In this document: piece after piece, positions 30,050 to 50,362 of the stretch | Layout of the letters: the number at the start of each line of letters is the position of its first letter | Numbering within the stretch: position 1 is the stretch's first letter | Assembly (NCBI GenBank): GCA_903889565.1 | Contig: CAISYC010000061.1 | Coordinates: 124,001 to 188,000 of the forward strand | Source of the DNA: an uncultured beta proteobacterium | GTDB taxonomy: Bacteria; Pseudomonadota; Gammaproteobacteria; Burkholderiales; SG8-41 | Direction of reading: 5' to 3' | DNA: 64,000 nucleotides | Translations under genes and position numbers: made by a program | The notes under the pieces: model-generated | What the model was told of the DNA's origin: nothing | The model's database searches: none | The model's input: only the letters and a program-made list of their open reading frames with translations

Positions 30050-30069
30050 TCAACCGAAGGACGCATTAA

Positions 30070-30846: not shown

Positions 30847-30905
30847 TCCGGCCGGCCGCGCTCGCCATCGCGACCGCGGTCAACCCACTTCAGGAAAACC
30901 ACGCA

Positions 30906-32102: not shown

Positions 32103-32129
32103 CCGCCATCGAATCCCCGGAGAGCAAGC

Positions 32130-32921: not shown

Positions 32922-32930
32922 GCCCCGCGC

Positions 32931-34271: not shown

Positions 34272-34316
34272 AGCGGGCATAATCGCGGTTCAATTTTTCA
34301 CGAGGGAAAACGCAAC

Positions 34317-35198
34317 ATGCCTTACGCCGATTCGAACGGAATCAATCTTTATTACGAAGAAGCCGGCCGCGGCACGCCGATCGTGTTCGTGCACGAGTTC
34401 GCCGACGATCTGCATTCATGGGAAGCGCAGATCCGCTACTTCAGCCGCCGTTATCGCTGCATTGCCTTCAATGCGCGCGGGTATGCGCCGTCGGACGTGC
34501 CCAAGGCGGTATCGAAATATTCGCAGGCGATCGCCACCGACGATATTGCCGCAGTCATGCGTCATTTGAATATCAAAAAAGCTCACATCATCGGCTGCTC
34601 GATGGGCGGCTATGCGACGATCCATTTCGGCTTGCGCCATGCGCGCATGGCGCTGTCGCTGACGGCGGTCGGTGCGGGCTACGGTTCGGACCCGGACAAG
34701 CGCGCGCAGTTCATGCGCGACACCGAAGTGATGGCGCGGCGCTTCGAAGAACTTGGCACCGCTGAAGCGATCAAGCCCTATCAGATCGGCCCGGCGCGCG
34801 TGCAGTTCCAGAACAAGGACCCGCGCGGCTTCGCGCATTTCTGCGCCGAATTCGCCAAACACTCGGCGCTGGGCTCGGCCAACACGCTCCGCGGCGTGCA
34901 GGCGAAGCGGCCGACGATTTACAGTCTGGGGCGCGCGCTGAGAAAACTGACAGTGCCGCTGCACGTGGTAAGCGGCGACGAAGACAATCTCTGTCTGGAG
35001 CCGGGGCTGTTCATCAAGCGCGTCTGCACTGCCGCAGCGCTGACGGTGGTCGCCAACAGCGGGCACGCGGTGAATCGCGAAGAGCCGGATTTGTTCAACC
35101 GCCTGACGGCGGAGTTTCTGGCAAGTGTGGATTCAGGGCGCTGGCGGCCGCGGGATCCAAGGTCATTGAATGTCTCAACGATGGAGAGAAAGCGCTAG
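34317..35198 (+). CDS. Alpha/beta hydrolase
   Basis: 293 residues; GAGGGA precedes the ATG. Catalytic triad candidates are Ser in 'IIGCSMGGYATIHFGL' (GxSxG), Asp in 'HVVSGDEDNLCL' and His in 'VVANSGHAVNREEPDLFN'. The oxyanion loop reads 'VFVHEFADDLHSWEAQ', with HE in place of the usual HG. The overall layout resembles C-C bond hydrolases and small esterases. It is the last gene of the 29-35 kb unit and may cleave an ester, thioester or beta-keto compound. Confidence 0.87.
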   Translation: MPYADSNGINLYYEEAGRGTPIVFVHEFADDLHSWEAQIRYFSRRYRCIAFNARGYAPSDVPKAVSKYSQAIATDDIAAVMRHLNIKKAHIIGCSMGGYATIHFGLRHARMALSLTAVGAGYGSDPDKRAQFMRDTEVMARRFEELGTAEAIKPYQIGPARVQFQNKDPRGFAHFCAEFAKHSALGSANTLRGVQAKRPTIYSLGRALRKLTVPLHVVSGDEDNLCLEPGLFIKRVCTAAALTVVANSGHAVNREEPDLFNRLTAEFLASVDSGRWRPRDPRSLNVSTMERKR

Positions 35199-35269: not shown

Positions 35270-35665
35270 TTACTTTGCCGTGCCCTCGACCTTCGCTTTC
35301 AGCTTGGCCATGTATTTGTCGAGGTCGATCACGAAACGGTCATGCTCGGCTTCGCCGACCTGTTCGACCTCATCAAAGACCTTGCACTTGAAGGTCAGCT
35401 TGCGGCGATCAACCGCGACGAGTTCAGCTTCGCAGCGCACCTTCTTGCCGATTGGGGTTGGCGCCATGTGACGGATATTGACCTGCAGGCCGACCTGACC
35501 TTGGCCGGCTTTGATATGCGGCTCGACCAGTTTGTGCGCCGTCATTTCGACGAACCAGGTCATCGATGGCGTCGAGAACACGCGGTAGTCGCCGCGCTTG
35601 GTGGTCAGCGCCTCGGTGACTTCCCATTCGAGTTCGGTTTTCATGCCGGGTTTGAGCGTATCCAT
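35270..35665 (-). CDS. Hotdog-fold acyl-CoA thioesterase (FlK-like)
   Basis: 131 residues; ATG chosen with GGAG upstream ('MDTLKPGMKTELEWEVTE'). The hotdog motif 'VFSTPSMTWFVEMTAHKLV' carries Thr and Glu at positions like those in fluoroacetyl-CoA thioesterase FlK. 'GLQVNIRHMAPTPIGKKV' provides the His and 'GEAEHDRFVIDL' ends the sheet. It would release free acids from short acyl-CoAs. It is the last gene of the seven-gene carboxylation operon, 29 bases after the Bug gene, possibly a safety valve that returns CoA. Confidence 0.82.
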   Translation of the reverse strand: MDTLKPGMKTELEWEVTEALTTKRGDYRVFSTPSMTWFVEMTAHKLVEPHIKAGQGQVGLQVNIRHMAPTPIGKKVRCEAELVAVDRRKLTFKCKVFDEVEQVGEAEHDRFVIDLDKYMAKLKAKVEGTAK

Positions 35666-35694
35666 GCGTTCTCCGTTGCGTGAGCGGCTGCTGT

Positions 35695-36675
35695 TCAATT
35701 ATCCAGTTTAAGGCCGATGGCCTTGACCACCTTGCCCCATTTATCGATTTCGCTCTTGAGAAAACCGGCGAACTGATCGGGCGAACCGGGGAAGGGGTCG
35801 GTGCCGGCGCCGGCAAGTTTCTCGACGGTATCGGGCATTGCCAGCACGCGATTGATGTCGGTCGAGAGTTTGTTGATGACCTCGCGCGGCGTGCCGGCCG
35901 GCACGAAATAACCCTGCCACAGTACCGCTTCGTAGCCGGGCAGGCCGGACTCCGCGACGGTGGGAACTTCAGGCACGGCCCTGGCGCGCGTCTTCGAGGT
36001 CACCGCGATTGCGTTCACACGCCCGGCCTTGATCATCTGCACCGACGAGGCGAGCCCCGCGAAATAGACGACGACCTGCCCGCCGATCAAATCCTTCAGC
36101 GCCAGCGCGCCGCCCTTATACGGAATGTGAACCATCTTGATGCCGGCCATGGTGTTGAACAATTCGGCCACCATGTGATCGGAATTGCCATAGCCGGTTG
36201 AAGCCATCAGCAACTCGCCCGGCTTCTTCTTGGCCAGCGCAATCAATTCCTTCACATTGCGCACCGGCAGCGAAGGATGCAACAGGATGACGTGGGGCGT
36301 GATGCTGGCCGTCGTGACGGTGGCAAGATCGCGCTGCACGTCATACGCCATCTTTGCGTACATCGCCGGACTCACCGCGATCGCGTTCTGCCCGAGCAGC
36401 ATCGAATAGCCGTCGGTGGGGCTCTTCGCCACATTCTCGGCGCCGATGTTGCCGGCCGCCCCCGGTCGCGGATCGACGATCACCGGCTGGCCCCATAGTT
36501 CGGTCAGCTTCTGGCCGATGATGCGCGCCACCACATCGGTGGTGCCGCCCGGCGTGTAGCCGATGACGGTGCGCACCGGTTTCTGCGGAAAATTCTGCGC
36601 GCCGGCCGGCACGATAACGATCACCAGCGCCGCGGATACCCACATCGACACGCGGAAATTTTGACGGGTCTTCAT
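35695..36675 (-). CDS. Bug/TctC-family periplasmic solute receptor
   Basis: 326 residues from the ATG behind AGGGGGAG; signal peptide 'MKTRQNFRVSMWVSAALVIV' with cleavage near 'PAGAQNFPQKP'. Motifs: 'VRTVIGYTPGGTTDVVARI', 'VDPRPGAAGNIGAENVAK' and 'VHIPYKGGALALKDLIGG'. It sits inside the acyl-CoA carboxylation operon, 25 bases after the synthetase alpha gene, so its ligand is probably the acid that the synthetase activates. Confidence 0.92.
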   Translation of the reverse strand: MKTRQNFRVSMWVSAALVIVIVPAGAQNFPQKPVRTVIGYTPGGTTDVVARIIGQKLTELWGQPVIVDPRPGAAGNIGAENVAKSPTDGYSMLLGQNAIAVSPAMYAKMAYDVQRDLATVTTASITPHVILLHPSLPVRNVKELIALAKKKPGELLMASTGYGNSDHMVAELFNTMAGIKMVHIPYKGGALALKDLIGGQVVVYFAGLASSVQMIKAGRVNAIAVTSKTRARAVPEVPTVAESGLPGYEAVLWQGYFVPAGTPREVINKLSTDINRVLAMPDTVEKLAGAGTDPFPGSPDQFAGFLKSEIDKWGKVVKAIGLKLDN

Positions 36676-36700
36676 GGTCACTCCCCCTGAAGCCGTCAGT

Positions 36701-38143
36701 TTAACCGCGACGCGACTGCACAAAGCGTTCGTGCGAGCGCAGAGCCTTCAGCGCGTAACCGGCGTTGCCGATTTCATCGAATACCGGGATGCCGAGCTCG
36801 ACCGCCTTGGCGCGGAATTCGCGCTTGCGCGCCTCGATCTGCTCGTCACCGTCGGAACGCAGCACCAGCAGGAAGTGCGCGAGGCCCGGAAACTTCGATT
36901 GCACCCGCATCGCCGCAAGCACCACGTTGTCGAGCACTTCCGGTTTGGAGCGGCCGACGAAGGGCGCCATGTTCAAATGCATGACCAGCGCCTCGGGTTT
37001 GCCGATGCCGTAGATGATGTCGACGATTTTTTCGGCGACGCGGCCGTCGTCCTGCTGCAGCGTGCCGACCGGACAATCGACCGGGTTGGTGATGCTGGTG
37101 CCGGGCGGCAGATTCAGTTCAGCGAGCGCAGCAATGGTGTCAGCCGCAAACGGCGCCACTTCGAGGCCGAGGCGCGCGTAGGTGTCAGTCGCAAGCACGC
37201 TGGCGCCGCCGCCGTTGCCGAACAGCACGACACGTTCGGTCGGCTTGTCGGGGCGCGGTGTCAGCGTCTGGAAAATCAGCAGCGTGTCGATGAATTCGTC
37301 GAGCGACTCGGCGAGGATGCAACCGGTCTGCCGCGACAGCGCAATCCAGGCGCGATCATCGCCCGCCAGCGAGCCGGTGTGCGACACCGCGGCAGCGAGA
37401 CCAAGCTTGGTGCGGCCACCCTTGAGCAACACCACCGGCTTGCGCGCTTTTTCAGCACGCAGAATTTCAAAAATGCGCCGCGCGTCGCGCGCCGTCTCGA
37501 TATACATGCCGATGACCTTGGTGTCCGGATCGGCGAAGTAATACTCGAGCATGTCGCTGGGGCCGATGTCGGCGCAGTTGCCGACCGTGACCAGCCCCGA
37601 GAATTTGATGCCACGGTTGAGGCCACGGCGCACAATGTCTGTGCCAAGGCCGCCGCTTTGCGACACCACGCCGACGGAGCCGGCGGGACGCGGGCCGATT
37701 TCGGTAAAGGTCAGATGGCCGCGCGGCGAATAAATGCCGAGGCAGTTCGGCCCAAGCAGGCGCATGCCGCCGGCGCGCGCCGCATCGACCAGTTGTTGCT
37801 GCAGGTCGCGGCCCTCATCGACTTCGCCGAAGCCGCTGGAAATCACTTGCGCAAAACGCACGCGACCCTTGGCGGCTGCGAGCAGCGGCGGAATCTGCGC
37901 GCCGGCAATCGCGATGAAGGTGTAATCGATGGGTTCCGGCGTGTCGGCGAGGCTGCGATAGGCCTTGAGGCCGTCGATCTCGGGCGCGCTCGGGTGGATC
38001 GGATAAATTGCGCCGGTGAAACCGAGTTCGCGGATGCGGCGGATGAAGACGTTGGGCAGTGCCGCGCCCTTGGTCGAAGCGCCGACGACGGCAACAGTCT
38101 TCGGCTTGAACAGCGGGTTGAAGCGTTCGACGATGGCCTTCAT
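36701..38143 (-). CDS. ADP-forming acyl-CoA synthetase, alpha subunit
   Basis: 480 residues matching the first two thirds of the fused protein at 13091. CoA-binding Rossmann domain: 'KTVAVVGASTKGAALPNVF' and 'TGAIYPIHPSAPEIDG'. 'LLGPNCLGIYSPRGHLTF' and 'GVVSQSGGLGTDIVRRGL' follow, and the phospho-His region is 'AAVSHTGSLAGDDRAWIA'. It overlaps the beta-subunit gene by ATGA (38140-38143). Together they would convert a carboxylic acid, ATP and CoA to acyl-CoA, ADP and phosphate. Confidence 0.88.
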   Translation of the reverse strand: MKAIVERFNPLFKPKTVAVVGASTKGAALPNVFIRRIRELGFTGAIYPIHPSAPEIDGLKAYRSLADTPEPIDYTFIAIAGAQIPPLLAAAKGRVRFAQVISSGFGEVDEGRDLQQQLVDAARAGGMRLLGPNCLGIYSPRGHLTFTEIGPRPAGSVGVVSQSGGLGTDIVRRGLNRGIKFSGLVTVGNCADIGPSDMLEYYFADPDTKVIGMYIETARDARRIFEILRAEKARKPVVLLKGGRTKLGLAAAVSHTGSLAGDDRAWIALSRQTGCILAESLDEFIDTLLIFQTLTPRPDKPTERVVLFGNGGGASVLATDTYARLGLEVAPFAADTIAALAELNLPPGTSITNPVDCPVGTLQQDDGRVAEKIVDIIYGIGKPEALVMHLNMAPFVGRSKPEVLDNVVLAAMRVQSKFPGLAHFLLVLRSDGDEQIEARKREFRAKAVELGIPVFDEIGNAGYALKALRSHERFVQSRRG

Positions 38144-38838
38144 GCGAGTACGAACCTCGCATCGACGGCGACCGCACCGTTGGCAGAAACGATCAGCGGA
38201 TTGATGTCGGCCTCGGTGAAATCGTCGGCATGCTGCATGAGGAGGCCGTTTTCGCCGCCGATTTTCAGCAGCACGTCGATGATGGCCTCGCGCGAAGCAG
38301 GCGCACGCCCGCGCGCGCCATTGAGCAGTGCCACGCCCTTCAATTCATCGAGCATTTCGGCCGCATCGAGCCGCGTGATCGGGCAGATGCGAAAGGCGAC
38401 GTCGGCCAGTATCTCGACGAAGATGCCGCCGAGGCCGACCATGACCAGCGGCCCGAAGTTCGGGTCGCGCACCGCGCCGACCACCACCTCCTGCCCGGCC
38501 GGCGCCATTTCCTCGATCAGCCAACCGTCGATGCGCGCGTTTTTGATCTGCGGCGCTGCGGCCATGGTGGTTATCGCCTGCGCGAGTTCATCGGCATTTT
38601 TGAGGCCGATCTTCACGCCGCCGGAATCGCTTTTGTGCAGTATTTCCGGAGACATCACCTTCACTGCGAAGGGCGGCTGCATGCCGGCAATCGCGTTAGC
38701 CACCGTGGCCTCGTCTTTGGCAATGACCGATTTCGGCACGCTGACGCCAAAACTCGCCAGCAGTTGTTTGCCGGCAAGTTCGTCGAGGGCGGCGCGGCCT
38801 TCTTTCTTCGCCGCGCTGATCAGATTGTTTGTACTCAT
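38140..38838 (-). CDS. ADP-forming acyl-CoA synthetase, beta subunit (ATP-grasp)
   Basis: 232 residues, an ATP-grasp domain. It shows 'GKQLLASFGVSVPKSVIA', 'PFAVKVMSPEILHKSDSGGV', 'LIEEMAPAGQEVVVGAVRD' and 'VMVGLGGIFVEILADV'. It is the partner of the preceding alpha subunit and shares ATGA with it. Its own ATG overlaps the biotin carboxylase stop (TGATG), so three genes are translationally chained. Split alpha and beta subunits are known in archaea; here they coexist with a fused version at 13091. Confidence 0.88.
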   Translation of the reverse strand: MSTNNLISAAKKEGRAALDELAGKQLLASFGVSVPKSVIAKDEATVANAIAGMQPPFAVKVMSPEILHKSDSGGVKIGLKNADELAQAITTMAAAPQIKNARIDGWLIEEMAPAGQEVVVGAVRDPNFGPLVMVGLGGIFVEILADVAFRICPITRLDAAEMLDELKGVALLNGARGRAPASREAIIDVLLKIGGENGLLMQHADDFTEADINPLIVSANGAVAVDARFVLA

Positions 38839-40193
38839 CAGGTCGTTTTCTTTTTTGCCATGACTTCGGGAATGAGGCCGGTATGCACCGCACCATCGCG
38901 GAACTGCTCTGAGCGCAGTATCGTCAGCACTGCCGGGATGTTGTTTTTCAGGCCCTGAATGTCGAAGGCGGCGAGCGCTTCGATCAAACGATCGATCGCC
39001 GCTTCACGCGTCGCCGCATGCACGATCACCTTGGCAATCATCGGATCGTAGAAGGGCGTGACGTCGCGGCCTTCGGCATAGCCGGTATCGACGCGGATCG
39101 ACGCATCCTGCGGCGGCCGGAACACCGTCAGCTTGCCCGGAGAGGGGTAGAAATTCTTCGGGTCTTCGGCGTAGACGCGCGCCTGAATGGCATGGCCCTT
39201 AACCTCGATTTTCGCCGGCAGGATGTCGGCGAGTTTTTCGCCGGCCGCGCTGCGGATCTGCGCCTGCACCAGATCGACACCGGTGATTTCTTCAGTAACA
39301 CCATGCTCGACCTGCAGGCGCGTGTTCATTTCGAGGAAGTTGAACGAGGCGTCGGCGCCGCGCAGCATTTCGACCGTGCCGATGTTGTCGTAGCCCATGC
39401 CCTTGACCATCGCCACCACGGCCGCGGCCATCTCTTCGATTTCGGCACGCGGGATCGCCGGCGCGCAGGCCTCTTCGATCACCTTCTGATTGCGCCGCTG
39501 CACCGAGCAATCGCGCTCGAACAAATGCACGGCGCCGCCGTGCTGATCGCCCAGCACCTGGAATTCGATGTGGCGCGGCTTTTCCAGCAAGCGTTCAAGA
39601 TAGACCTCGGCGTTACCGAAACCGCGGCTCGCCATCGATTGCGAGCGCTCGACCACCGCCAGCAATTCGGATTCGTCTTTTGCCGGCAGCATGCCGATGC
39701 CGCCGCCGCCACCGGCCGGCTTGACCAGCACCGGATAGCCGATGCCGCGCGCGGCGGCGAGAATGCGCTCGGGTTCGGCCGGCAGTACGCCGGTGCCTTT
39801 GGTCATCGGCATGCCGTATTCGGCAGCAATGTCGCGCGCACGTGTCTTGTGACCCATTGCCTCGATCCACTTCGGCGAGGGACCGATGAAACAGACGCCG
39901 GCGTCGGTGACGCGCTGCGCGAAGGCGGCGTTTTCCGACAAAAAGCCGTAGCCGGGATGCACGCCGTCGGCGTTGGCTTTTTTCAATACGGCGAGCAGCG
40001 TGTCCTGATTCAGGTAGCTGTCGGCGGCGGGCGAGGCGCCGATGGCGTAAGTCTCGCTTGCCATCTCGAGATAGGGCGCGCCGTAATCCGCTTCGGAATA
40101 CACGGCCACCGACTTGATGCCCATTTCATAGAGCGCGCGCAGTACGCGCGCAGCAACCGCACCGCGATTGGCAACAACAACTTTATTGAACAT
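38838..40193 (-). CDS. Biotin carboxylase subunit of an acyl-CoA carboxylase
   Basis: 451 residues, starting at 'MFNKVVVANRGAVAARVLR' with AAAGG upstream. ATP-grasp features: 'VHPGYGFLSENAAFAQ', 'VLVKPAGGGGGIGM', 'LFERDCSVQRRNQKVIEE' and 'FLEMNTRLQVEHGVTEEITG', where HP is replaced by HG. It carboxylates the biotin of a carrier protein with ATP and bicarbonate. The chain stops after the biotin carboxylase C-domain with no biotinyl domain, so it needs a separate carrier such as the one at 44347. Confidence 0.93.
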   Translation of the reverse strand: MFNKVVVANRGAVAARVLRALYEMGIKSVAVYSEADYGAPYLEMASETYAIGASPAADSYLNQDTLLAVLKKANADGVHPGYGFLSENAAFAQRVTDAGVCFIGPSPKWIEAMGHKTRARDIAAEYGMPMTKGTGVLPAEPERILAAARGIGYPVLVKPAGGGGGIGMLPAKDESELLAVVERSQSMASRGFGNAEVYLERLLEKPRHIEFQVLGDQHGGAVHLFERDCSVQRRNQKVIEEACAPAIPRAEIEEMAAAVVAMVKGMGYDNIGTVEMLRGADASFNFLEMNTRLQVEHGVTEEITGVDLVQAQIRSAAGEKLADILPAKIEVKGHAIQARVYAEDPKNFYPSPGKLTVFRPPQDASIRVDTGYAEGRDVTPFYDPMIAKVIVHAATREAAIDRLIEALAAFDIQGLKNNIPAVLTILRSEQFRDGAVHTGLIPEVMAKKKTT

Positions 40194-40217
40194 CAAAAAC
40201 CTTTCAGCCGTGCTCTT

Positions 40218-40287
40218 GTAGCGCAGGCCGCATTTTCGACTATGTGCCTGCTTGGTCAACGAATGCAGGCGGGTAAGCCTGCGCTAC
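40218..40287. repeat. Intergenic inverted repeat GTAGCGCAGGC
   Basis: GTAGCGCAGGC (40218-40228) and GCCTGCGCTAC (40277-40287) are perfect 11-bp arms around a 48-base centre. An inner GCCTGC/GCAGGC pair (40246-40251 and 40265-40270) makes a second hairpin. It occupies the gap between the carboxyltransferase and biotin carboxylase genes. 'GTAGCGCAGGC' palindromes are often dispersed between betaproteobacterial genes. Confidence 0.6.
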
Positions 40288-40301
40288 CTAAAAGCGCGCT
40301 T

Positions 40302-41837
40302 CTAATAGCTTGTCGGCCATGTGCGCATGAGGTGTTGTCCCACACCCTTGGTCATGCGCAGTTGATAAACCTCCAGCATGCGGATCAGATAGTCGCGTGT
40401 TTCTTCCGGCTTGATCACCGCCTGCGCGGCATACACCGATGCGAGGCCCCAGACATCGGAACCCTGTTCGATCTCGGCCAGCCGTGCCTCGAAATCCGCA
40501 TCGCCCGGCTTCACGCCGTGCACGATGGTGGTCGCGAACTCGGGGCTCATGAAACTGATTTCCGCGCTGGGCCACGCCGAGATGTCATCGGTATGGCGGC
40601 CGCCGCCCATGCACACGTAGGCGCGGCCATAGCTCTTGCGCAGAATCACCGACAGGCGCGGCACGGTCAGCAGCGTCATCGCATTCATGAAGTTCATGAT
40701 CTTACCCGGCGCGCCGGCTTTCTCGGCCTCGGTGCCGATCTGGAAGCCCGGGGTATCGACCAGCAGCACGATCGGTATGTTGAACGAATCGCACAGCACC
40801 AGAAAATCGACGATCTTGCGGCAGGCGTCGGCATCGAGCGCGCCGCCGCGGTGCAGCGGGTTGTTGGCAACGATGCCGACGCTCTTGCCGTTCATGCGCG
40901 ACAGCGCGACCAGCGCGCTTTTGCCGAAGCGCGGCTTCAGTTCGAACATCGAATCCTTGTCGACGATGTATTTGACGATCTTGCGCATGTCGTAGACCTG
41001 GGTGCGCTTCTCCGGCAACAGCGAAAGAATGCCCGCCATATCGGCGCCGGAACCGGCCGGCACCGGCATGACCGGCGGGGTTTCGTTATTGTGGCTCGGC
41101 AGATAAGAAAGAAAGGTTTTGATCGCCGCAAACATTTCTTCTTCGGTATCGACCACCTGATCGATCAGCCCGGTGGTTTCCGCGTGCAAACGCCAGCCGC
41201 CGAGTTCGTCAAGATTTACTTTTTCGTTGAGCGCCATTTCGATCAGCCGCGGGCTCGACACCGCCATCGTCGCGCCCTTGTGCATCACCGCGAAGTCTGA
41301 CAGACAGGCGAACCACGCTGATGAGCCAAACGAGGGGCCGACCACACCGGCCGCCATCGGCGTTTCACGCGTGCGGCGAAACTGCGTGTTGTCGTTGCCG
41401 AGCAGCTGGCCCATGCCGCGTGCGCCCATCGCATCGGGCAATCGGGCGCCGGTCGATTCGCCAATAATGACGAAAGGCATGCCGCGTTCGGTGGCGGTGC
41501 GCTTCATGTGGCCGACCTTCTTGCCGTTGGTGGCGCTGGTCGAGGCACCTTTGACGGTGAAGTCGTTGACCACCACCGCCACATCGCGGCCGCCGATTTT
41601 GGCGAAGCCGGCGATCTTGCCGTCGGTTGGTGTTTCGTCGGCTTCCTTCGGATATACGCCCGAGGTGCCGAAAAGGCCCGATTCGATGAAACTGTTTTCA
41701 TCGACCAGCGCTGCGACCCGTTCGCGCGCGTTGAGCTGGCCGGATTTTTTGCGCCGCGCGACCTTGTCGGGCCCGCCCATGCCGAGCGCCTTGGCGCGGC
41801 GGGTTTCGTATTCAGCCATCAGTTTTTCGAATGCCAT
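40302..41837 (-). CDS. Acyl-CoA carboxylase carboxyltransferase subunit (type A, copy 1)
   Basis: 511 residues; starts 'MAFEKLMAEYETRRAKALG' after AAGGAA. The crotonase-like double domain is complete: 'ARERVAALVDENSFIESG', 'VVVNDFTVKGASTSATNG', 'FVIIGESTGARLPDAMGA', 'SVGIVANNPLHRGGALDAD' and 'IVLLVDTPGFQIGTEAEKAG'. It transfers the carboxyl group from biotin to an acyl-CoA. The C-terminus 'VGQHLMRTWPTSY' matches that of the carboxyltransferase at 46170 ('VGKHRLANWPTSY'), a close paralogue of identical length. It is second in the operon, 47 bases after the type B gene. Confidence 0.9.
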   Translation of the reverse strand: MAFEKLMAEYETRRAKALGMGGPDKVARRKKSGQLNARERVAALVDENSFIESGLFGTSGVYPKEADETPTDGKIAGFAKIGGRDVAVVVNDFTVKGASTSATNGKKVGHMKRTATERGMPFVIIGESTGARLPDAMGARGMGQLLGNDNTQFRRTRETPMAAGVVGPSFGSSAWFACLSDFAVMHKGATMAVSSPRLIEMALNEKVNLDELGGWRLHAETTGLIDQVVDTEEEMFAAIKTFLSYLPSHNNETPPVMPVPAGSGADMAGILSLLPEKRTQVYDMRKIVKYIVDKDSMFELKPRFGKSALVALSRMNGKSVGIVANNPLHRGGALDADACRKIVDFLVLCDSFNIPIVLLVDTPGFQIGTEAEKAGAPGKIMNFMNAMTLLTVPRLSVILRKSYGRAYVCMGGGRHTDDISAWPSAEISFMSPEFATTIVHGVKPGDADFEARLAEIEQGSDVWGLASVYAAQAVIKPEETRDYLIRMLEVYQLRMTKGVGQHLMRTWPTSY

Positions 41838-41884
41838 TGCCAGTTCCTTGTTTGCAATTACGGGCGGACGCCGTAGCGTGTCAT

Positions 41885-43453
41885 TTACGGTCGCACGCCG
41901 AAGCGCGCTTTGGGTCCGAGACGGGTTTTCATGCCGACCTGCGCCGCTTCGAGAAAGCGGCACAGATAGGGGCGGGTTTCGCGCGGGTCGATCAGGTCTT
42001 CCACGCCGAAGGCTTCGGCGGTGAGGATGGGCGAGGTCATGCGTTTCAATTCGGCCTCGAGTTCGGCTTCTTTGGCGATCGGGTCTTCGGCGGCGGCCAG
42101 TTCGCGTTTGAAAGCGGCTTTGACACCACCCTCGATCGGCAGCGAGCCCCATTCCGCCGACGGCCAGGCAATTTTGAAATTGAGACCGTTGCGATCGATG
42201 GTGTTGCCGCCGGCCATGCCGTAACACTTGCGCACCACCACGGTGAAGGTCGGCACGGTGAGTTGCATGTTGAGGTAACGCGCCTGCATGCCGATGCGCA
42301 AAATGCCGGCGGCTTCGGCCTCCATGCCGATCTGAAAGCCCGGCACATCGACAAGAAAAATCAGCGGGATGTTAAAGGTGTCGCACAATTCGGTGAAATG
42401 CGCCTGCTTGCGCGCGGCTTTCACGTCGATTACGCCGCCGAACATCGGGTTGTGCGCGATGACGCCGACCACCATGCCGTTCATGCGCGCCAGCGTGATG
42501 ATGACGGCGCGACCAAAGCTCGGCTGGATTTCGAACGTCGATTCGCGATCGACGATCATCGCAAGCAGTTTGCGCATGTCGTAGGGCTGGCGCTGGGAAC
42601 GCGGAATGATGGACGCCAGCGCATCTTCGCAACGATCGACCGCATCGCCGCAGGCGGTCTGCGTCGGCAGCTCCCACACGTTTGACGGCATGTACGACAG
42701 AAAGCGGCGGATCTGCGCAAGGCAATCGGCTTCCGTCTCAGCAGCGTTGTCGATGGTGCCGGCAGTATCGACGGCCATTTTGTGCCCGCCGAGTTCTTCC
42801 TTCGTCACCTTGGTGTTGTAGGCGCGCTCGACCACCGGCGGACCGGCGGCGAAAATCTGGCTGGTGTTTTTCACCATCACGGTCCAGTGGGCAAGAATCG
42901 CGCGGCCCGAGGGTCCGCCGGCGGCGGTGCCCATGACTGCACTGACCACCGGTACCTCGCCCATCAACTCGACCGAACGCTCGAAGCCGTCGGGACCAGA
43001 GCCGGGAAAGGTGGCGTGGCCGCGGCGCGAAATCGAGGTCACGCTGCCGCCGACGCCGTCGATCAGGTTGACCAGCGGAATGCGGTAAAGATGGGCAAGA
43101 TCTTCGATAAAGCCGCCCTGCCCCCCCTTGCGCCGCGCGCCGCCGAAGCCGGCGCCACCCTTGATGGTGTAGTCCTCACCACCCACGGCAACGGGGCGGC
43201 CATCGATTTTGCCGAGTCCGGCGACATAGGGCGACGGCGTAAACGACAGCAGCTTTCCGGCCTCGTCGTATTTCGCCGTGCCGGCCAGTTTGCCGACTTC
43301 CTGAAATGAGTTGGCATCGAGCACGCCGTCAATGCGTTCGCGGATGGTGAGCTTGCCGGCGGCGTGATGGCGCGCCACCGCGTCCGCGCCACCGCATTGC
43401 TCGGCCAGCCCGCGACGACGCTTGATCTCCTCGATTTCAGCGGACCAACTCAT
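41885..43453 (-). CDS. Acyl-CoA carboxylase carboxyltransferase subunit (type B)
   Basis: 522 residues from 'MSWSAEIEEIKRRRGLAEQ' with GGGGAA upstream. Typical stretches: 'KLTIRERIDGVLDANSFQE', 'VGGEDYTIKGGAGFGGARR', 'VSAVMGTAAGGPSGRAILA', 'VGVIAHNPMFGGVIDVKA' and 'IFLVDVPGFQIGMEAEAAG'. It differs in sequence from the type A subunits, so the operon carries two unlike full-length carboxyltransferases. They may form a hetero-oligomer or use different acyl-CoAs. It is the first gene of the operon, next to a sigma70 promoter and a GntR operator. Confidence 0.9.
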   Translation of the reverse strand: MSWSAEIEEIKRRRGLAEQCGGADAVARHHAAGKLTIRERIDGVLDANSFQEVGKLAGTAKYDEAGKLLSFTPSPYVAGLGKIDGRPVAVGGEDYTIKGGAGFGGARRKGGQGGFIEDLAHLYRIPLVNLIDGVGGSVTSISRRGHATFPGSGPDGFERSVELMGEVPVVSAVMGTAAGGPSGRAILAHWTVMVKNTSQIFAAGPPVVERAYNTKVTKEELGGHKMAVDTAGTIDNAAETEADCLAQIRRFLSYMPSNVWELPTQTACGDAVDRCEDALASIIPRSQRQPYDMRKLLAMIVDRESTFEIQPSFGRAVIITLARMNGMVVGVIAHNPMFGGVIDVKAARKQAHFTELCDTFNIPLIFLVDVPGFQIGMEAEAAGILRIGMQARYLNMQLTVPTFTVVVRKCYGMAGGNTIDRNGLNFKIAWPSAEWGSLPIEGGVKAAFKRELAAAEDPIAKEAELEAELKRMTSPILTAEAFGVEDLIDPRETRPYLCRFLEAAQVGMKTRLGPKARFGVRP

Positions 43454-43540
43454 GAAATTCCCCGGGTTCACGCGACGGACGGGCATCACACTCGCCGTGC
43501 GCAAAAGCAGCGGGGCCAGGCCCGCCGGAAGTGTGCGGCT

Positions 43541-43570
43541 ATCCTAGCCTCGGCCCTGTTTTGTTGTCAA
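43541..43570 (-). promoter_or_regulatory. Sigma70 promoter of the carboxylation operon
   Basis: On the minus strand a perfect -35 TTGACA (43570-43565) is followed after 18 bases by TAGGAT (43546-43541), a four-of-six -10. Transcripts would begin near 43534, about 80 bases before the type B carboxyltransferase ATG. The -35 lies inside the GntR operator region, so repression by occlusion is expected. Confidence 0.65.
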
Positions 43571-43588
43571 TTAGATTGTTGACAATCT
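43561..43588. promoter_or_regulatory. Double GntR-type operator
   Basis: Two related sites, TTGTTGTCAA (43561-43570) and TTGTTGACAA (43576-43585), lie 15 bp apart. The second is the core of a longer palindrome, AGATTGT-TG-ACAATCT (43573-43588). TTGTNNACAA-like cores are typical for GntR/FCD regulators. The sites lie between the divergent carboxylation operon and the gntR gene, overlapping the operon's -35 and the presumed gntR promoter, so autoregulation is likely. Confidence 0.7.
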
Positions 43589-43614
43589 TACAAGAAAATC
43601 GGTAACGTAGCTAC

Positions 43615-44331
43615 ATGCCCCGCAAACCCGACTCCGCCCCCGCGCTCCAGCCCCCCGCCGCGCCACCGGCGCCGCTCACGCAATCGCTGCCCGAGCAGAT
43701 CGCCGCGCAGCTGGCGACACGCATCACCTCCGGTGCCTATGTGCCAGGCCGGCGCATCATGGAACAGGCGGTCGCCGGCGAATTTACGGTGAGCCGCGGG
43801 CCCGTGCGCGAGGCTCTGCGGTTGCTCGAAAAAGACGGTCTGGTCACGATTCTGCCGCGGCGCGGCGCCCAGGTGACGAATCTGACCATCGCCGAGGTGC
43901 GCGAGATTTTCGACATCCGCGCCGCCCTCAACGGCCTGCGCGACCGCGATATCGCCGAGGATCCGCGCCGGCTCGAATGGCTGCCGCAGATCGAGGCCGA
44001 GGTGAAAAAACTGGCGCAGCAGGCGCGCGATGCGACCGCCGGCGACGACTATGCTGAAACGGTGTTCCGGCTCAATCGCCTGCTCAACGCCGCCACGCGC
44101 AGCCGCCGCCTGCGCAATATTCTCGGCGCGCTGGCGCAACAGACGCTGCGCTATTCGCGGCTGGGATTATCCAGCGAACAGCGGCGACGGCAGTCGGTCA
44201 GGCACTGGCAGGAACTGGTGAGAGCGATTCGCGACGGCGACGGCGAGAGCGCGCAACGCACCGCCGAGCGGCGCGTGCGTGATTCGCGCGATGCCGCGAT
44301 CAAGAAACTCGAGGATGCGGCTGGACGGTAG
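43615..44331 (+). CDS. GntR-family transcriptional regulator (FCD subfamily)
   Basis: 238 residues. A proline-rich head (1-30) precedes the winged helix: 'LPEQIAAQLATRITSGAYVP', 'GRRIMEQAVAGEFTVSRGP' and 'REALRLLEKDGLVTILPRRG'. The C-terminal helical domain starts at 'LTIAEVREIFDIRAALNGL' and has FCD features, including a late His in 'SVRHWQELVRAIRDGD' that could help bind a metal or carboxylate ligand. It is divergent from the seven-gene carboxylation operon with two operator sites between them, and probably represses it until an acid or acyl-CoA binds. Confidence 0.88.
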   Translation: MPRKPDSAPALQPPAAPPAPLTQSLPEQIAAQLATRITSGAYVPGRRIMEQAVAGEFTVSRGPVREALRLLEKDGLVTILPRRGAQVTNLTIAEVREIFDIRAALNGLRDRDIAEDPRRLEWLPQIEAEVKKLAQQARDATAGDDYAETVFRLNRLLNAATRSRRLRNILGALAQQTLRYSRLGLSSEQRRRQSVRHWQELVRAIRDGDGESAQRTAERRVRDSRDAAIKKLEDAAGR

Positions 44332-44346
44332 GCGCCCGCCGTTCAG

Positions 44347-44568
44347 TCAACCTTCGAGGATGGCGACAACCTGGCCTTCGGCCACCGGATCCTTCGGCTG
44401 GACGAGGATTTCCTTCACCACGCCGCCGTCCTCGGTGATCACCGGGATTTCCATTTTCATCGACTCGACGATCATCAGGATCGCGCCTTCTTCAACCGTG
44501 TCGCCGACCTGCGAGCTGAGTTTCCACAAGGTGCCGGTGATTTCCGATTTGACTTCGATTCTGGCCAT
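44347..44568 (-). CDS. Stand-alone biotin carboxyl carrier protein
   Basis: 73 residues from 'MARIEVKSEITGTLWKLSS'. It is a bare biotinyl domain: 'VGDTVEEGAILMIVESMKM' with the biotin Lys at position 38 in E-S-M-K-M-E, then 'VKEILVQPKDPVAEGQVVA'. The normal AMKM reads SMKM. It lacks the N-terminal half of AccB. It converges on gntR with 15 bases between stops. It is the only carrier in the window and should serve the biotin carboxylase at 38838 and one or more of the three carboxyltransferases. Confidence 0.9.
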   Translation of the reverse strand: MARIEVKSEITGTLWKLSSQVGDTVEEGAILMIVESMKMEIPVITEDGGVVKEILVQPKDPVAEGQVVAILEG

Positions 44569-44677: not shown

Positions 44678-45493
44678 ATGAACGACATGGCTGAACTTCC
44701 TGCTCTGAAAAATGCTGCGCTCGCGCTCGACGCGCGCGTCGCCACCCTGACCTTTCAAAGGGATGACGTGCGAAATGCGCTGACCGGCACCGAATTGACC
44801 AACGATATTGTCGCCACGCTCGAGTGGGCCAACACCTGCGCCGATGTGTCGGTGCTGATCATGACCGGCGAGGGCAGCGCCTTTTCCGCCGGCGGCAATA
44901 TCAAGAACATGGCGGCGCGCGCCAAGGCGTCGCCGCATATCCTCGCCCAGTATTACAAATACGGCGTGCAGCGCATTCCGCTTGCCATGCAGGCGGTGGA
45001 GATTCCGGTGATTGCGGCGGTCAACGGGCCGGCGATCGGCGCCGGTTTCGATCTGGCCAACATGTGCGACCTGCGTATCGGTTCCACGGCTGCGCAGTTC
45101 GGCGAAACCTTCGGCAATCTCGGTTTGATCCCGGGCGACGGCGGCAGCTGGTTTCTGCAAAGGCTGGTCGGCTATCAACGCGCGGCGGAGCTGACGTTTA
45201 CCGGTCGAATCGTCAAGGCCGAAGAGGCAAAGGCCCTCGGCATTTTGCTCGAGATCACCGAACCGGAAACCCTGCTTGCGTGTACCCAGGAGATGGCGGC
45301 GAAGATGGCGGCCAAACCGCCGCTGGCGTTGCGCTATGCCAAAAGGCTGTTGCGGCTGTCACAGCAGCAGAATCTCGCTGAACATCTGGACACCTGTTCG
45401 AGTTTTCAGGCGCTGTGCCAGAAATCCGATGATCACGCCGAGGCGCTGGCGGCGTTTTTCGAAAAGCGCGCCGGGGTATTCAAGGGACGCTGA
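44678..45493 (+). CDS. Enoyl-CoA hydratase/isomerase (crotonase family)
   Basis: 271 residues. 'FQRDDVRNALTGTELTND', 'FSAGGNIKNMAARAKAS' (first oxyanion segment), 'AVNGPAIGAGFDLANMCDL' (second) and 'FGETFGNLGLIPGDGGSWFL'. The Glu normally in GGGCELA is Asp here (GAGFDLA), while an acidic residue remains in GETFG. It could be a hydratase or an enoyl-CoA isomerase. The C-terminus 'FFEKRAGVFKGR' is standard. It is oriented away from the carrier-protein gene and is followed after 2 bases by a periplasmic protein gene. Confidence 0.88.
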   Translation: MNDMAELPALKNAALALDARVATLTFQRDDVRNALTGTELTNDIVATLEWANTCADVSVLIMTGEGSAFSAGGNIKNMAARAKASPHILAQYYKYGVQRIPLAMQAVEIPVIAAVNGPAIGAGFDLANMCDLRIGSTAAQFGETFGNLGLIPGDGGSWFLQRLVGYQRAAELTFTGRIVKAEEAKALGILLEITEPETLLACTQEMAAKMAAKPPLALRYAKRLLRLSQQQNLAEHLDTCSSFQALCQKSDDHAEALAAFFEKRAGVFKGR

Positions 45494-46169: not shown

Positions 46170-47705
46170 TCAGTAGCTGGTCGGCCAGTTGGCCAGACGG
46201 TGCTTGCCGACGCCGTTGTTCATGCGCATGCAATGCACTTCAAGCGCGCGCTTCAGAAAACTGCGCGTATCGCGGGGGTCAATGACGTTTTGCGCGTCAT
46301 AGAGCTCGGCAAGGCCCCAGGCCGACGTATCGCGCTGTACTTCCTTGATCAGCTCGGCAAAGCGTTCCGGGTCATCTTCTTTTTTGACGCCGTACAGAAT
46401 GTTCACGCTGACCGCCGGATCCATGAAGCCGAGGTCGGCGGTCGGCCACACCGCAACTTCATCCGCGTTTTTGTTGCCGGCCATGTTGATGTAAGCCTGG
46501 CCGTAGCTTTTGCGCATGATGATGGTGATTTTCGGCACCGTGACCTGGGTCATCGCGTTCATCCAGTTAATGACCTTGCCCGGCATGCCGCGAAGCTCGC
46601 CTTCGACGCCGATCAGAAAGCCCGGCACATCGACCAGATACACCAGCGGGATGTTGTACGAATCGCACAACACCATGAAGCTGATGACCTTCTGGCAGGC
46701 GTCGGCATCCAGCGCGCCGCCCTTGAACAGTGGATTGTTGGCGATGAAGCCGACGCTGCGGCCATCGACACGGGCGAGCATGGTGCACAGCGATTTGCCG
46801 AAACGCTCCTTGATTTCGAAGGTGCTGTCTTTGTCGGCAACGACTTTGATGACTTTGCGCACGTCGTACACCTGGTTACGCGATTCCGGCACGATGTCGA
46901 GCATGGCTTTGCAGGGCTCGTCCGAACCCGCCGGCACCGGATGCACCGGCGGCGCTTCGTTCTGATGGCTGGGCAGGTAGGATAAAAAGGTTTTGACGGC
47001 ATCAAGCGCCTGCTCGTCGGTATCGACCGCCATATCGACCAGACCGGAAACGCCGGTCAGCAGTTTCCAGCCGCCGAGGTCCTCGGGCTCGATTTTCTTG
47101 TTGATGGCGATCGACGTCACGTTGGGGCTGGCAATCGCCATGATCGCGCCCTTGCGCATGACGACGAAATCCGACATCGCGGAATACCAGGTCGATGAAC
47201 CGTAACAGGGGCCCAGCAGCGCCGATACCCAGGGTGTTTCGCGCAGCCGCTGATACTCGACCGGATCCTGCGCGATGATCGAGCGCCCTGCGGCACCCAT
47301 GCGGTCGGGCATGCGCGCGCCGCTCGATTCGCCGAGCATGACCAGCGGCAGGCCGCGCTTGATCGAGCTCTCCTTGGTATGCCGGATCTTTTTCATGTTG
47401 ATCACGGAGGACGACGCGCCGAGCACTGTGAAGTCATTGGAGACAATCGCGACTTCGCGCCCGTTGATGCGCGCGAAGCCGGCCACCTTGCCGTCCGCCG
47501 GCGTCTTCGCGCGCACTTCCGGACGGATGCCGACGGCGAAGCGGCCGGATTCGAAAAAGCTGTCCTTATCGACGAGATAGTCGATGCGCTCGCGCGCGTT
47601 CAAGTGGCCCTCCGCTTTGCGCCGGGCAAGTTTTTCGGGGCCGCCCATGGCGAGTGCGCGGGCGGTGCGTTCCTGCAATTGTTTAAGCGGTTCTTCGAAG
47701 GCCAT
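46170..47705 (-). CDS. Acyl-CoA carboxylase carboxyltransferase subunit (type A, copy 2)
   Basis: 511 residues, same length and layout as the protein at 40302: 'MAFEEPLKQLQERTARALA', 'ARERIDYLVDKDSFFESGR', 'IVSNDFTVLGASSSVINM', 'LVMLGESSGARMPDRMGA', 'SVGFIANNPLFKGGALDADA' and 'VYLVDVPGFLIGVEGELRG'. The PGF-IG segment differs (FLIGVEGE against FQIGTEAE), which points to another acyl-CoA. It follows its own Bug receptor by 33 bases, so the pair forms a unit. It needs the shared biotin carboxylase and carrier. Confidence 0.9.
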   Translation of the reverse strand: MAFEEPLKQLQERTARALAMGGPEKLARRKAEGHLNARERIDYLVDKDSFFESGRFAVGIRPEVRAKTPADGKVAGFARINGREVAIVSNDFTVLGASSSVINMKKIRHTKESSIKRGLPLVMLGESSGARMPDRMGAAGRSIIAQDPVEYQRLRETPWVSALLGPCYGSSTWYSAMSDFVVMRKGAIMAIASPNVTSIAINKKIEPEDLGGWKLLTGVSGLVDMAVDTDEQALDAVKTFLSYLPSHQNEAPPVHPVPAGSDEPCKAMLDIVPESRNQVYDVRKVIKVVADKDSTFEIKERFGKSLCTMLARVDGRSVGFIANNPLFKGGALDADACQKVISFMVLCDSYNIPLVYLVDVPGFLIGVEGELRGMPGKVINWMNAMTQVTVPKITIIMRKSYGQAYINMAGNKNADEVAVWPTADLGFMDPAVSVNILYGVKKEDDPERFAELIKEVQRDTSAWGLAELYDAQNVIDPRDTRSFLKRALEVHCMRMNNGVGKHRLANWPTSY

Positions 47706-47738: not shown

Positions 47739-48701
47739 TTATTGCAATTCGACGTTGGCGTCCTTGATGACTTTCGCCCACTTCACGATTTCGGACTTGA
47801 TATGCGCGTCGAATTCGGCGGCGCTGCTGCCGACCGGTTCAGCGCCAAGATCGGCCAGACGGGTATAGACATCCGGCATTTTGAGTATGCGCGCGGTTTC
47901 CGCCGAGAGTTTGTTGATGATGTCGCGCGGCGTCTTCGCCGGCGCCAGCAGGCCGAACCACGCCACGGTGACATAGCCGGGCACGCCCGCTTCGGCCATA
48001 GTCGGGATCTCCGGCGCAGCCGGCGAACGCTTGGCCGTGCTCACCGCCAGCGCGCGCACGCGACCGGCCTTGATCTGCGGGGTGTAGGCCGGCATATTGG
48101 AGAGCGACAGCATGATCTGACCGCCCATCAGGTCGGCCAGCACGCCAGCGTCACCCTTGTAGGGAATGTGCGCCATCTTGGTCCCGGTCATCGCCATGAA
48201 CAACTCGACCGACATGTGACCGGTGCTGCCGTAACCGGGCGAACCGAAATTGAGTTTGCCGGGGTTCGCGCGAAGGTAGGCAATCAACTCGCGCACATCC
48301 TTGACCGGCAGCGTGTTGTTGACGACCAGCACGTTGGGCACCGTCGCCACCAGGCTGATGCCGGCGAAATCCTTGACCGCGTCGAAACCCAATTTTCGAT
48401 AGAGGCCGGGATTGATGCCGTGCGGCGCCGCCGTGGTCATCAGCAGCGTATAGCCGTCGGGCGTCGACTTGGCGGCATATTCGGTACCAATGTTGCCATT
48501 GGCGCCGGGCCGGTTATCGATGATCACCGGCTGGCCCCAGGCCTCGGTCAGTTTCTGTCCGATTGCGCGCGCGAGGATATCGGTGGTGCCGGCCGGCGTA
48601 TAGGCAACGACGATGCGGATCGGCTTGGCCGGATAGGTTTCCGCAGCGGCACTGGCAACCAGCGCCATTAGCGGAATCGCAACTCTCAACAGGCTGAACA
48701 T
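47739..48701 (-). CDS. Bug/TctC-family periplasmic solute receptor
   Basis: 320 residues; ATG after AGGAG; signal peptide 'MFSLLRVAIPLMALVASAAA'. The mature part begins 'ETYPAKPIRIVVAYTPAGTT', then 'VIIDNRPGANGNIGTEYAAK', 'MAHIPYKGDAGVLADLMGG' and 'PTMAEAGVPGYVTVAWFG'. It is the receptor gene nearest to tctBA (same strand), but a terminator separates them, so its expression can differ. The position makes it the best candidate for the receptor of this TctAB. Confidence 0.92.
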   Translation of the reverse strand: MFSLLRVAIPLMALVASAAAETYPAKPIRIVVAYTPAGTTDILARAIGQKLTEAWGQPVIIDNRPGANGNIGTEYAAKSTPDGYTLLMTTAAPHGINPGLYRKLGFDAVKDFAGISLVATVPNVLVVNNTLPVKDVRELIAYLRANPGKLNFGSPGYGSTGHMSVELFMAMTGTKMAHIPYKGDAGVLADLMGGQIMLSLSNMPAYTPQIKAGRVRALAVSTAKRSPAAPEIPTMAEAGVPGYVTVAWFGLLAPAKTPRDIINKLSAETARILKMPDVYTRLADLGAEPVGSSAAEFDAHIKSEIVKWAKVIKDANVELQ

Positions 48702-48800
48702 GCATCGGCTCCTGCGCATCTGACGGAAAGCGGGAATTTTACGGCGCGCCGCCGCTTCCGGGCGGAAAATTGGCAAGGCGCCATTCTGCCGTCACGAAAA

Positions 48801-48847: not shown

Positions 48848-50362
48848 TCAATCGTCGGCTTCGGCCAGAATCTCGCGTTTTTTCTGGAACTGGGGCAACA
48901 CCACCATCAGCAGCAGCGCGAAGGCGACAAGCAGCTGTCCGCAACTGATCGGCCGTGTAAAGAAGACCGATGGATCGCCGCGCGAGATCAGCATCGCGCG
49001 CCGCAGGTTCTCCTCCATCAACGGGCCGAGCACGAAACCCAGAATCATCGGCGCAGCCTCGCAACCCCACTTCGCAGCGTAGTAGCCGAAGAAACCGAAG
49101 AATGCCGCGAGGTAAACGTCGAACTCGGAATTGTTGATCGAGTAAGCGCCGATCGCGATGAACAGCAGGATGCTGGGGAACAGAATGCGATACGGGATTT
49201 TCAGGAATTGCACCCACATGCCGATCAGGGGCAGATTCAGAATCACCAGCATCAGGTTGCCGATCCACATCGAGGCGATCATGCCCCAGAACAGATCGGG
49301 CTTCTGCGTCATCACCTGCGGGCCCGGCGCGATGCCCTGAATGGTCATCGCACCGACCATCAGCGCCATCACTGCACCCGTCGGAATGCCCAGGGTCAGC
49401 AGCGGTATGAAGCTGGTCTGCGCCGCGGCGTTGTTGGCTGACTCGGGTCCGGCCACGCCTTCGATCGCGCCTTTGCCGAAACGCGACGGATCCTTGGCCA
49501 GTTTCTTTTCAAGCGTATAAGACGAGAACGACGCGATAACCGTATGCGAGCCAGGCAGGATGCCGAAAATCGTGCCGAGCAGGGTGCCGCGTACCGTCGG
49601 CCCGATCGCCGTTTTGATATCGTCTATCGTCGGCATCAGCGTGTGGACCTGGGACACTTCGATGCTTTTGGTTTCGGCCGTCTGACCCAGATTGCTGATG
49701 ATCTCGCCAAAGCCGAACATGCCCATCGCCACCGAAACGAAACCGATGCCGTCGGACAACTCGGATACACCGAAGCTGTAACGCGCGATACCGGAGTTCA
49801 CGTCGGTGCCGACGATACCGCCCAGCAGCCCCACGATAATCATGCCGATCGCCTTGATCAGCGAGCCGGAGGCCAGCACCACTGCGGCAACCAGGCCCAA
49901 CACCATCATCGAAAAGTATTCGGCGGCGCCGAATTCGAACGCGAGTTCAGCCAGCGGCGGACCAAACAGCGCGATCAGGATGGTGCCGACGCAACCGGCG
50001 AAGAACGACCCCATTGCCGCAATCGCCAGCGCGGGTCCGGCACGGCCCTGCCGTCCCATCTGGTAGCCGTCGATACACGTCACCACCGAGGAAGATTCGC
50101 CGGGAAGGTTGACCAGGATCGCGGTGGTTGAACCGCCGTAACTCGCGCCGTAGTAAATGCCCGCGAGCATGATCAGCGCGGGAATCGGCGGCAGGTTGAA
50201 GGTGATCGGCAACAGCATCGCGATGGTGGCGACCGGTCCGATGCCCGGCAACACGCCGATGACGGTGCCGAGAAAGCAGCCGAGGAAACAGTACAACAGG
50301 TTTTGCATGCTCAGCGCAACCGTGAAGCCGAGCATTAAATGATCAAAAACGCCTGAGAACAT
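48848..50362 (-). CDS. tctA: Tripartite tricarboxylate transporter large membrane subunit
   Basis: 504 residues, about twelve helices. The TctA signatures are 'FLGTVIGVLPGIGPVATIAM' near the N-terminus, 'ILVNLPGESSSVVTCIDGY' and 'GTIFGILPGSHTVIASFSSY' (repeat of the same motif in the second half), and 'LTLGIPTGAVMALMVGAM'. It forms the cation-coupled channel with TctB and takes substrate from a TctC/Bug receptor. It follows tctB by 32 bases and is closed by the terminator above. Confidence 0.95.
   Translation of the reverse strand: MFSGVFDHLMLGFTVALSMQNLLYCFLGCFLGTVIGVLPGIGPVATIAMLLPITFNLPPIPALIMLAGIYYGASYGGSTTAILVNLPGESSSVVTCIDGYQMGRQGRAGPALAIAAMGSFFAGCVGTILIALFGPPLAELAFEFGAAEYFSMMVLGLVAAVVLASGSLIKAIGMIIVGLLGGIVGTDVNSGIARYSFGVSELSDGIGFVSVAMGMFGFGEIISNLGQTAETKSIEVSQVHTLMPTIDDIKTAIGPTVRGTLLGTIFGILPGSHTVIASFSSYTLEKKLAKDPSRFGKGAIEGVAGPESANNAAAQTSFIPLLTLGIPTGAVMALMVGAMTIQGIAPGPQVMTQKPDLFWGMIASMWIGNLMLVILNLPLIGMWVQFLKIPYRILFPSILLFIAIGAYSINNSEFDVYLAAFFGFFGYYAAKWGCEAAPMILGFVLGPLMEENLRRAMLISRGDPSVFFTRPISCGQLLVAFALLLMVVLPQFQKKREILAEADD

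Follow-up and report, generated by a model that had tools for sequence, protein, structure and literature searches.

One biotin carboxylase, one small biotin carrier and several carboxyltransferases: a conserved multi-carboxyltransferase arrangement in an uncultured beta proteobacterium and its relatives

Introduction

How might a bacterium supply several acyl-CoA carboxyltransferases (CTs) from one free biotin carboxylase (BC) and one small biotin carrier? The question is raised by a locus in a 64,000-nucleotide stretch of DNA (the window) from an uncultured beta proteobacterium (GTDB lineage Bacteria; Pseudomonadota; Gammaproteobacteria; Burkholderiales; SG8-41), namely positions 124,001 to 188,000 of the forward strand of contig CAISYC010000061.1 in GenBank assembly GCA_903889565.1. 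An earlier note, made from the sequence without database searches, had described here a seven-gene operon for the activation and biotin-dependent carboxylation of an acid. It missed a third CT gene and the excess of CT genes over BC genes, and this excess is the stronger finding. We conclude that a conserved multi-CT arrangement is real, and we think it probable that one BC and one mini-carrier act as a shared hub that charges several substrate-specific CTs, as a modular carboxylation platform. In the best reading of such a hub, each CT is tied to its own receptor and its own activating enzyme. No description of this arrangement turned up in the literature searched, which covered titles and the openings of abstracts, with most subscription journals outside its scope.

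Results

Genes of the locus

All nine genes named in the earlier note were found where it had placed them, with intact frames (open reading frame list, translations, and Pfam matches above cut-off). They comprise seven minus-strand genes in the order CT1, CT2, BC, beta and alpha subunits of an ADP-forming acyl-CoA synthetase (ACD), Bug receptor, and FlK-type thioesterase, together with a divergent GntR regulator and the carrier. The TGATG and ATGA overlaps at gene junctions were likewise confirmed. The features of the region are as follows.

35270..35665, minus strand: FlK-type hotdog thioesterase, 131 aa (PF22636, 112.3 bits, cut-off 27)
35695..36675, minus strand: Bug/TctC periplasmic receptor, 326 aa (PF03401, 238 bits)
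36701..38143, minus strand: ACD alpha, CoA-binding and Succ_CoA_lig (PF13607, PF13380)
38140..38838, minus strand: ACD beta, ATP-grasp_5, 232 aa (PF13549, 216 bits)
38838..40193, minus strand: free BC, 451 aa, proposed hub enzyme (PF00289, PF02786, PF02785)
40302..41837, minus strand: CT2, 511 aa, [FY]GSS clade (PF01039, 317 bits)
41885..43453, minus strand: CT1, 522 aa, AGGP clade (PF01039, 324 bits)
43561..43594, no strand assigned: probable GntR operator, a TTGT...ATTGTCAACAA dyad with a conserved core 10-mer
43615..44331, plus strand: GntR/FCD regulator, 238 aa (PF00392, PF07729)
44347..44568, minus strand: 73-aa biotin carrier with the ESMKM motif, proposed hub carrier (PF00364, 50 bits)
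44678..45493, plus strand: enoyl-CoA hydratase family protein, divergent from the carrier and beside it in near relatives too (PF00378)
46170..47705, minus strand: third carboxyltransferase CT3, a CT2 paralogue (PF01039, 326 bits)
47739..48776, minus strand: Bug receptor adjoining CT3 (PF03401, 262 bits)
48848..50362, minus strand: TctA, membrane component of a tripartite tricarboxylate transporter (PF01970, 513 bits)

CT1, CT2, and CT3 all score far above the PF01039 cut-off of 22.3 bits, which places them in the PccB-type superfamily. CT2 and CT3 are 52% identical, and CT1 shares 34-35% identity with either (BLASTP). The carrier does lie beyond the GntR gene and encodes 73 residues, as had been claimed, but it stands outside the operon as a minus-strand gene of its own, separated from CT1 by the GntR gene and divergent from the enoyl-CoA hydratase gene. 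The stretch originally described had its genes correctly placed but ended too early: CT3 lies approximately 1.6 kb past its end and is accompanied by its own Bug and TctA genes.

Gene counts in the genome and the family

The assembly that contains the window (5.04 Mb in 74 contigs, 99.7% complete, 3.9% contaminated) gave two Biotin_carb_C matches, one to the window BC and one to a protein taken as AccC. Of its five Carboxyl_trans matches, three are full PccB-type proteins, all encoded in this locus, and a single match to the 73-residue carrier was found at E <= 1e-8. By gene counts, then, CT genes outnumber BC genes, as expected of a shared-BC system.

The same imbalance was found in the family, for which 74 genomes were searched for PccB-type CTs at E <= 1e-30, 41 of them with completeness of 90% or more and contamination of 5% or less. 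Exactly two BCs were present in 34 of these 41 genomes; 32 of the 34 had at least three PccB-type CTs, one had two, and one had none. The mini-carrier was single in 37 of the 41 genomes, double in three (one extra copy lies inside a 1234-aa frame), and absent in one, G003, which is also without a CT. The median number of CTs per accessory BC was 4.0 in the 40 good family genomes with more than one BC, whereas 40 genomes from elsewhere in the order gave a median of 1.0 and never exceeded 2.0 (Mann-Whitney p = 1.7e-14, a value that ignores kinship and omits the CT-less family genome). These controls came from an order sample of 100 genomes, three of which belong to the family; 47 of the other 97 had at least one PccB-type CT, and from these 47 we removed seven genomes with a CT2-family gene, whose ratios range from 1.0 to 4.5. 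At most 17 candidates were scored per family genome and at most 13 per order-sample genome, a number reached in the control genome G573, so that large numbers of CTs may be underestimates. The highest named count was 11 CT genes, in G055.

Many family genomes contain a further CT of about 500 bits. We fetched twelve such regions (L127-L138), and no BC match was found in any of these stretches of 9.8-19.5 kb. Ten of the twelve genomes have two BCs in all; G024 has three and G043 has five, so that an alpha chain elsewhere is possible in these two. A hydratase gene follows the CT gene in L128, L129, L130, and L136, and an HMM match confirmed HMG-CoA lyase in each of the regions tested (L129, L130, and L136); the acyl-CoA dehydrogenase of L136 gave no match as isovaleryl-CoA dehydrogenase. 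Three CTs aligned from these regions carry the TAGG and GAGNY motifs of 3-methylcrotonyl-CoA carboxylase (MCC), belong with the MCC-beta clade, and are MCC-beta-like. Alpha-less beta subunits of this kind would be possible if BC and carrier were shared.

Gene sets in relatives and co-occurrence of the carboxyltransferases

Among 104 fetched loci, CT1-type genes were present in 73, CT2-type genes in 58, and both in 48; labels were given by best hit, with a few distant rows mislabelled (e.g., the MCC of L082), while several of the loci overlap each other or come from one genome. A search for the CT2 family at E <= 1e-150 gave hits in 33 of 399 genomes of the order and in 2 of 398 of the phylum; both figures include the genome of the window. 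One relative is on plasmid pBB2 of Cupriavidus necator N-1, a culturable host, where the genes run GntR, Bug, CaiB, carrier, CT1, MaoC, Bug, a CT3-type gene, and BC. Others, L006 and L033, come from metagenome bins titled Bordetella parapertussis, whose titles may be mislabels. Acid activation, by ACD or by a CoA transferase of the CaiB type, is encoded in 45 of the 58 CT2 loci, several of the other 13 being short contigs; uptake of an acid, its activation to a CoA ester, and biotin-dependent carboxylation thus remain the natural reading, as first suggested.

Three types of gene set were distinguished. Type A, which resembles the window, has carrier, CT1, CT2, BC, ACD beta, and ACD alpha, often with FlK and an iron-type alcohol dehydrogenase and in part also with the sulfite-dehydrogenase-like protein described below. 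Type B consists of GntR, CaiB, CT2, in some cases BC, carrier, CT1, and an SsuABC-like transporter, and type C of an MR/MLE-type enzyme, CT2, a fused ACD, and BC, to which a copy on a Sulfitobacter plasmid (L079) adds carrier, BioY, a CitE-like lyase, and a sulfate exporter. The exact seven-gene order recurred in one further fetched locus, L006. In L007 and L009, Bug is replaced by an iron-type alcohol dehydrogenase, with FlK next to it; many other fetched loci end at contig ends in this comparison. CT3-type genes were often near genes for Bug and acyl-CoA dehydrogenase (L106, L113, L114, L116, L117, L119, and L120). An aconitase X (AcnX) gene lies near CT3 in L011, L106, L113, L114, and L120 (Pfam match tested on the L106 copy) and may hint at what CT3 acts on.

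CT1 and CT2 lie side by side more often than unrelated functions would explain, since both occur in 48 of the 104 loci, in ACD-type and CaiB-type sets alike, and PMC4347857 reports that the unlike mycobacterial CTs AccD4 and AccD5 interact in one complex. CT1 and CT2 might accordingly form one mixed carboxyltransferase of the AccD4-AccD5 kind, the operon encoding one dedicated heteromeric carboxylase and CT3 standing apart. We regard this alternative as rather unlikely, although it survives best of those considered. CT2 occurs without CT1 beside BC and ACD in six loci (L104, L105, L122, L079, L090, and L092, the first four also with a carrier), and CT1-type genes occur without CT2 in the fetched stretches of L057, L058, L076, and L077. 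Moreover, G020 and G033 lack a close CT1, with best E values of 3.4e-79 and 2.0e-125 compared to about 1e-240 or better for orthologues. Because CT2 is found where CT1 is missing, the earlier notion that the two CTs make up one obligate two-CT enzyme is unsupported.

Carboxyltransferase clades and signatures

A maximum-likelihood tree of 68 rows, with solved-structure sequences and geranyl-CoA carboxylase (GCC) outside it, placed CT1 in one clade (28 rows) and CT2 with CT3 in another (33 rows), each with support of 100/100. Both clades were apart from the MCC group of four and from the PccB/AccB rows, of which the tree holds only two. Two distant CT3-labelled rows fell outside the CT2/CT3 clade, L085 and L016, the latter grouping with MCC. 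The joining of the CT1 stem to the CT2/CT3 stem is unsure because both stems are long (tool warning). In a signature alignment of 175 rows, not de-replicated, AGGP was present in all 62 CT1 rows with 50% identity or more and in one of ten CT1-assigned rows below 50% identity, which vary. The signature [FY]GSS was present in 51 of 51 CT2 rows and in 42 of 43 CT3 rows, AGGA in three PccB-type rows, and TAGG in three MCC-beta-like rows. A complementary loss of active sites, in which CT1 would lack the C-domain hole and CT2 the N-domain hole to give an obligate CT1-CT2 heteromer, was considered and dropped, because the signatures are clade-specific yet conserved in both CTs and CT2 occurs without CT1.

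The PF01039 and TIGR01117 matches, and closest solved relatives that are propionyl/acetyl-CoA carboxylase beta chains, could be taken to mean that the locus encodes an ordinary propionyl-, acetyl-, or 3-methylcrotonyl-CoA carboxylase in an unusual gene order. We consider this improbable. The TIGR01117 match is far below its cut-off, and the window CTs carry AGGP or [FY]GSS and fall outside the sparsely sampled PccB clade, with its AGGA and GGAYD active-site motifs, and outside the MCC-beta clade, with its TAGG and GAGNY motifs. A fused alpha chain is usual for such enzymes in related bacteria; here, no fused BC-carrier chain of the propionyl-CoA carboxylase (PCC) kind stands beside the CTs, and the 451-aa BC and 73-aa carrier are encoded by separate genes. 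Among the 20 open reading frames scanned at 29-50 kb, none matched an HMGL-like protein or acyl-CoA dehydrogenase. Tree, motifs, and neighbours speak against a leucine, terpene, or propionate operon, but GCC of the acyclic terpene pathway is made less likely only by scores (136-145 bits for the solved GCC beta versus 280-288 for the best PCC-type chains). The view that the operon matches no characterised pathway has held so far.

A transcarboxylase, in which CT1, CT2, and the carrier shift a carboxyl group between two CoA esters and BC is merely an optional starter, seems very improbable: CT2, carrier, and CT1 do occur without a BC match in the fetched stretches of L014, L015, L018, L020, and L031, and in G061, which has CT1 and CT2 (L071), the sole BC frames other than one of AccC size are two long ones, but at least two BC matches were found in all 26 genomes searched and the window BC lies directly behind CT2.

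A putative GntR operator

The dyad core TTGTCAACAA lies between CT1 and GntR and occurs once in the window. Of 21 equivalent stretches in relatives, 17 contain its 10-mer, and three of the four without it are not long enough to include the site; among these stretches, L003-L006 are near kin, and L066 and L115 share a genome. In L059, L065, L069, L070, and L105, the carrier gene is the first gene after the dyad, which implies that carrier and CT expression are tied together there. Because the core is single in the window, none precedes the window's carrier gene.

Accessory genes and hints on the substrate

The ACD proteins have the domain content of ADP-forming acetate/acyl-CoA synthetases (CoA_binding_2 and Succ_CoA_lig in alpha, ATP-grasp_5 in beta; Pfam) and score well below equivalog cut-offs; for the acetate-specific model TIGR02717, the score of alpha was 309.9 bits versus a cut-off of 567.15. 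The likeness of the thioesterase to FlK, a fluoroacetyl-CoA thioesterase, is its domain match of 112.3 bits, and relatives of it occur in 11 fetched loci at 47-92% identity and in one more at 29%. The closest solved chains to the operon's Bug receptor are Bug27 and a terephthalate-binding Bug; naming a ligand from the receptor was dropped, since these proteins are too diverse.

Neighbours in relatives hint at sulfur-containing acids as substrates, as a lead only. A sulfite-dehydrogenase-like protein with an electron transfer flavoprotein (ETF) was encoded in 15 of the 58 CT2 loci (L010/L078 and L102/L126 being the same contigs), with no export signal visible, an SsuA-like receptor in 13 of the 58, and a YeiH-type sulfate exporter in L079. 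The sulfur-linked NCBIfam matches were all below cut-offs, and the operon of the window contains no such gene. The molybdenum protein of this kind stands beside ETF in L059, L060, L061, L066, L068, L102-L104, and L122, and those of these loci that have CT1 encode it between CT1 and CT2; coupling of a molybdenum protein to ETF would be unusual. On the Sulfitobacter plasmid, a methionine adenosyltransferase gene is clustered with those for CT2, the MR/MLE enzyme, ACD, and the sulfate exporter.

The commonest unknown neighbour in relatives (8 loci) was a short-chain dehydrogenase. In the window, positions 45496-46164 (plus strand) encode a 222-aa protein that begins with a signal-like segment and matched nothing in Pfam. 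Many loci of type A likewise have it next to the carrier and hydratase genes; its AlphaFold model, though confident (pLDDT 91.5), gave only weak fold matches (NTF2-like and, in part, SH3-like). Positions 29066-35198 (plus strand) hold genes for Bug, two enoyl-CoA hydratases, a CaiB-type CoA transferase, MmgE/PrpD, and an alpha/beta hydrolase, another acid pathway running towards the operon.

Discussion

We propose that the Bug receptor would present an external organic acid, of which the alpha/beta ADP-forming synthetase would form the CoA ester. The free BC would carboxylate biotin on the 73-residue carrier, with carboxybiotin made once for several CTs, and CT1, CT2, and CT3, each probably a hexamer of its own with its own substrate, would draw the carboxyl group from this one carrier. 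The neighbouring enoyl-CoA hydratase may then continue the breakdown by hydration, the FlK-type thioesterase may clear unproductive CoA esters, and GntR would repress the operon until an inducer appears.

Several points weigh against a shared hub. Gene counts fall short of proving that BC, carrier, and CT subunits meet, and the extra CTs could use AccC and AccB. The genomes are mostly fragmented assemblies, in which genes may be split or missed, and related genomes do not count as independent observations. The seven CT2-family carriers outside the family, at 1.0-4.5 CTs per accessory BC, imply that these genes need not be accompanied by a CT excess. To these are added the frequent adjacency of CT1 and CT2 and the AccD4-AccD5 complex noted above.

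The closest known wiring is that of mycobacterial AccA3 with AccD4 and AccD5, in which a single fused alpha chain combines BC and carrier. The likeness is that of one BC to several CTs, known here from genes alone; by contrast, BC and carrier are separate small proteins here, and the CTs belong to catabolic sets with Bug and acid-activating enzymes. PMC4347857 describes one alpha subunit, AccA3, as serving both AccD4 and AccD5, and an epsilon subunit among the components of mycobacterial acyl-CoA carboxylases. The acetyl/propionyl-CoA carboxylase of Sulfolobales has BC, carrier, and CT as three separate subunits, as stated in PMC3199775; it shares this three-way split, whereas the multi-CT layout and the ACD and Bug partners set the present locus apart from it. 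MCC of leucine degradation (liu) and GCC resemble the locus in a PF01039 CT and a nearby hydratase gene, and differ from it in their fused alpha chain, in the MCC signatures, and in that the solved MCC and GCC beta chains score below PCC-type chains.

As a tentative extension of the shared hub, which we hold as possible rather than probable, carboxylation in the family as a whole may be a plug-in system. One free BC and one 73-residue carrier would feed up to 11 CT genes (G055), alpha-less MCC beta genes included, and acids would be gained by cassettes of a CT, a Bug receptor, and a CoA-activating enzyme; CT1 and CT2 would act on CoA esters that are new as carboxylase substrates, possibly organosulfur ones.

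If the hub proposal is true, orphan CT genes, likely annotated as propionyl- or methylcrotonyl-CoA carboxylase, would become testable with one shared BC/carrier kit, and a compact, mixable carboxylase would be at hand for synthetic CO2 fixation. A small BC-carrier pair would support an expandable set of CO2-adding enzymes without a fused alpha chain, and this would explain how bacteria of the family acquire new acid-degrading routes.

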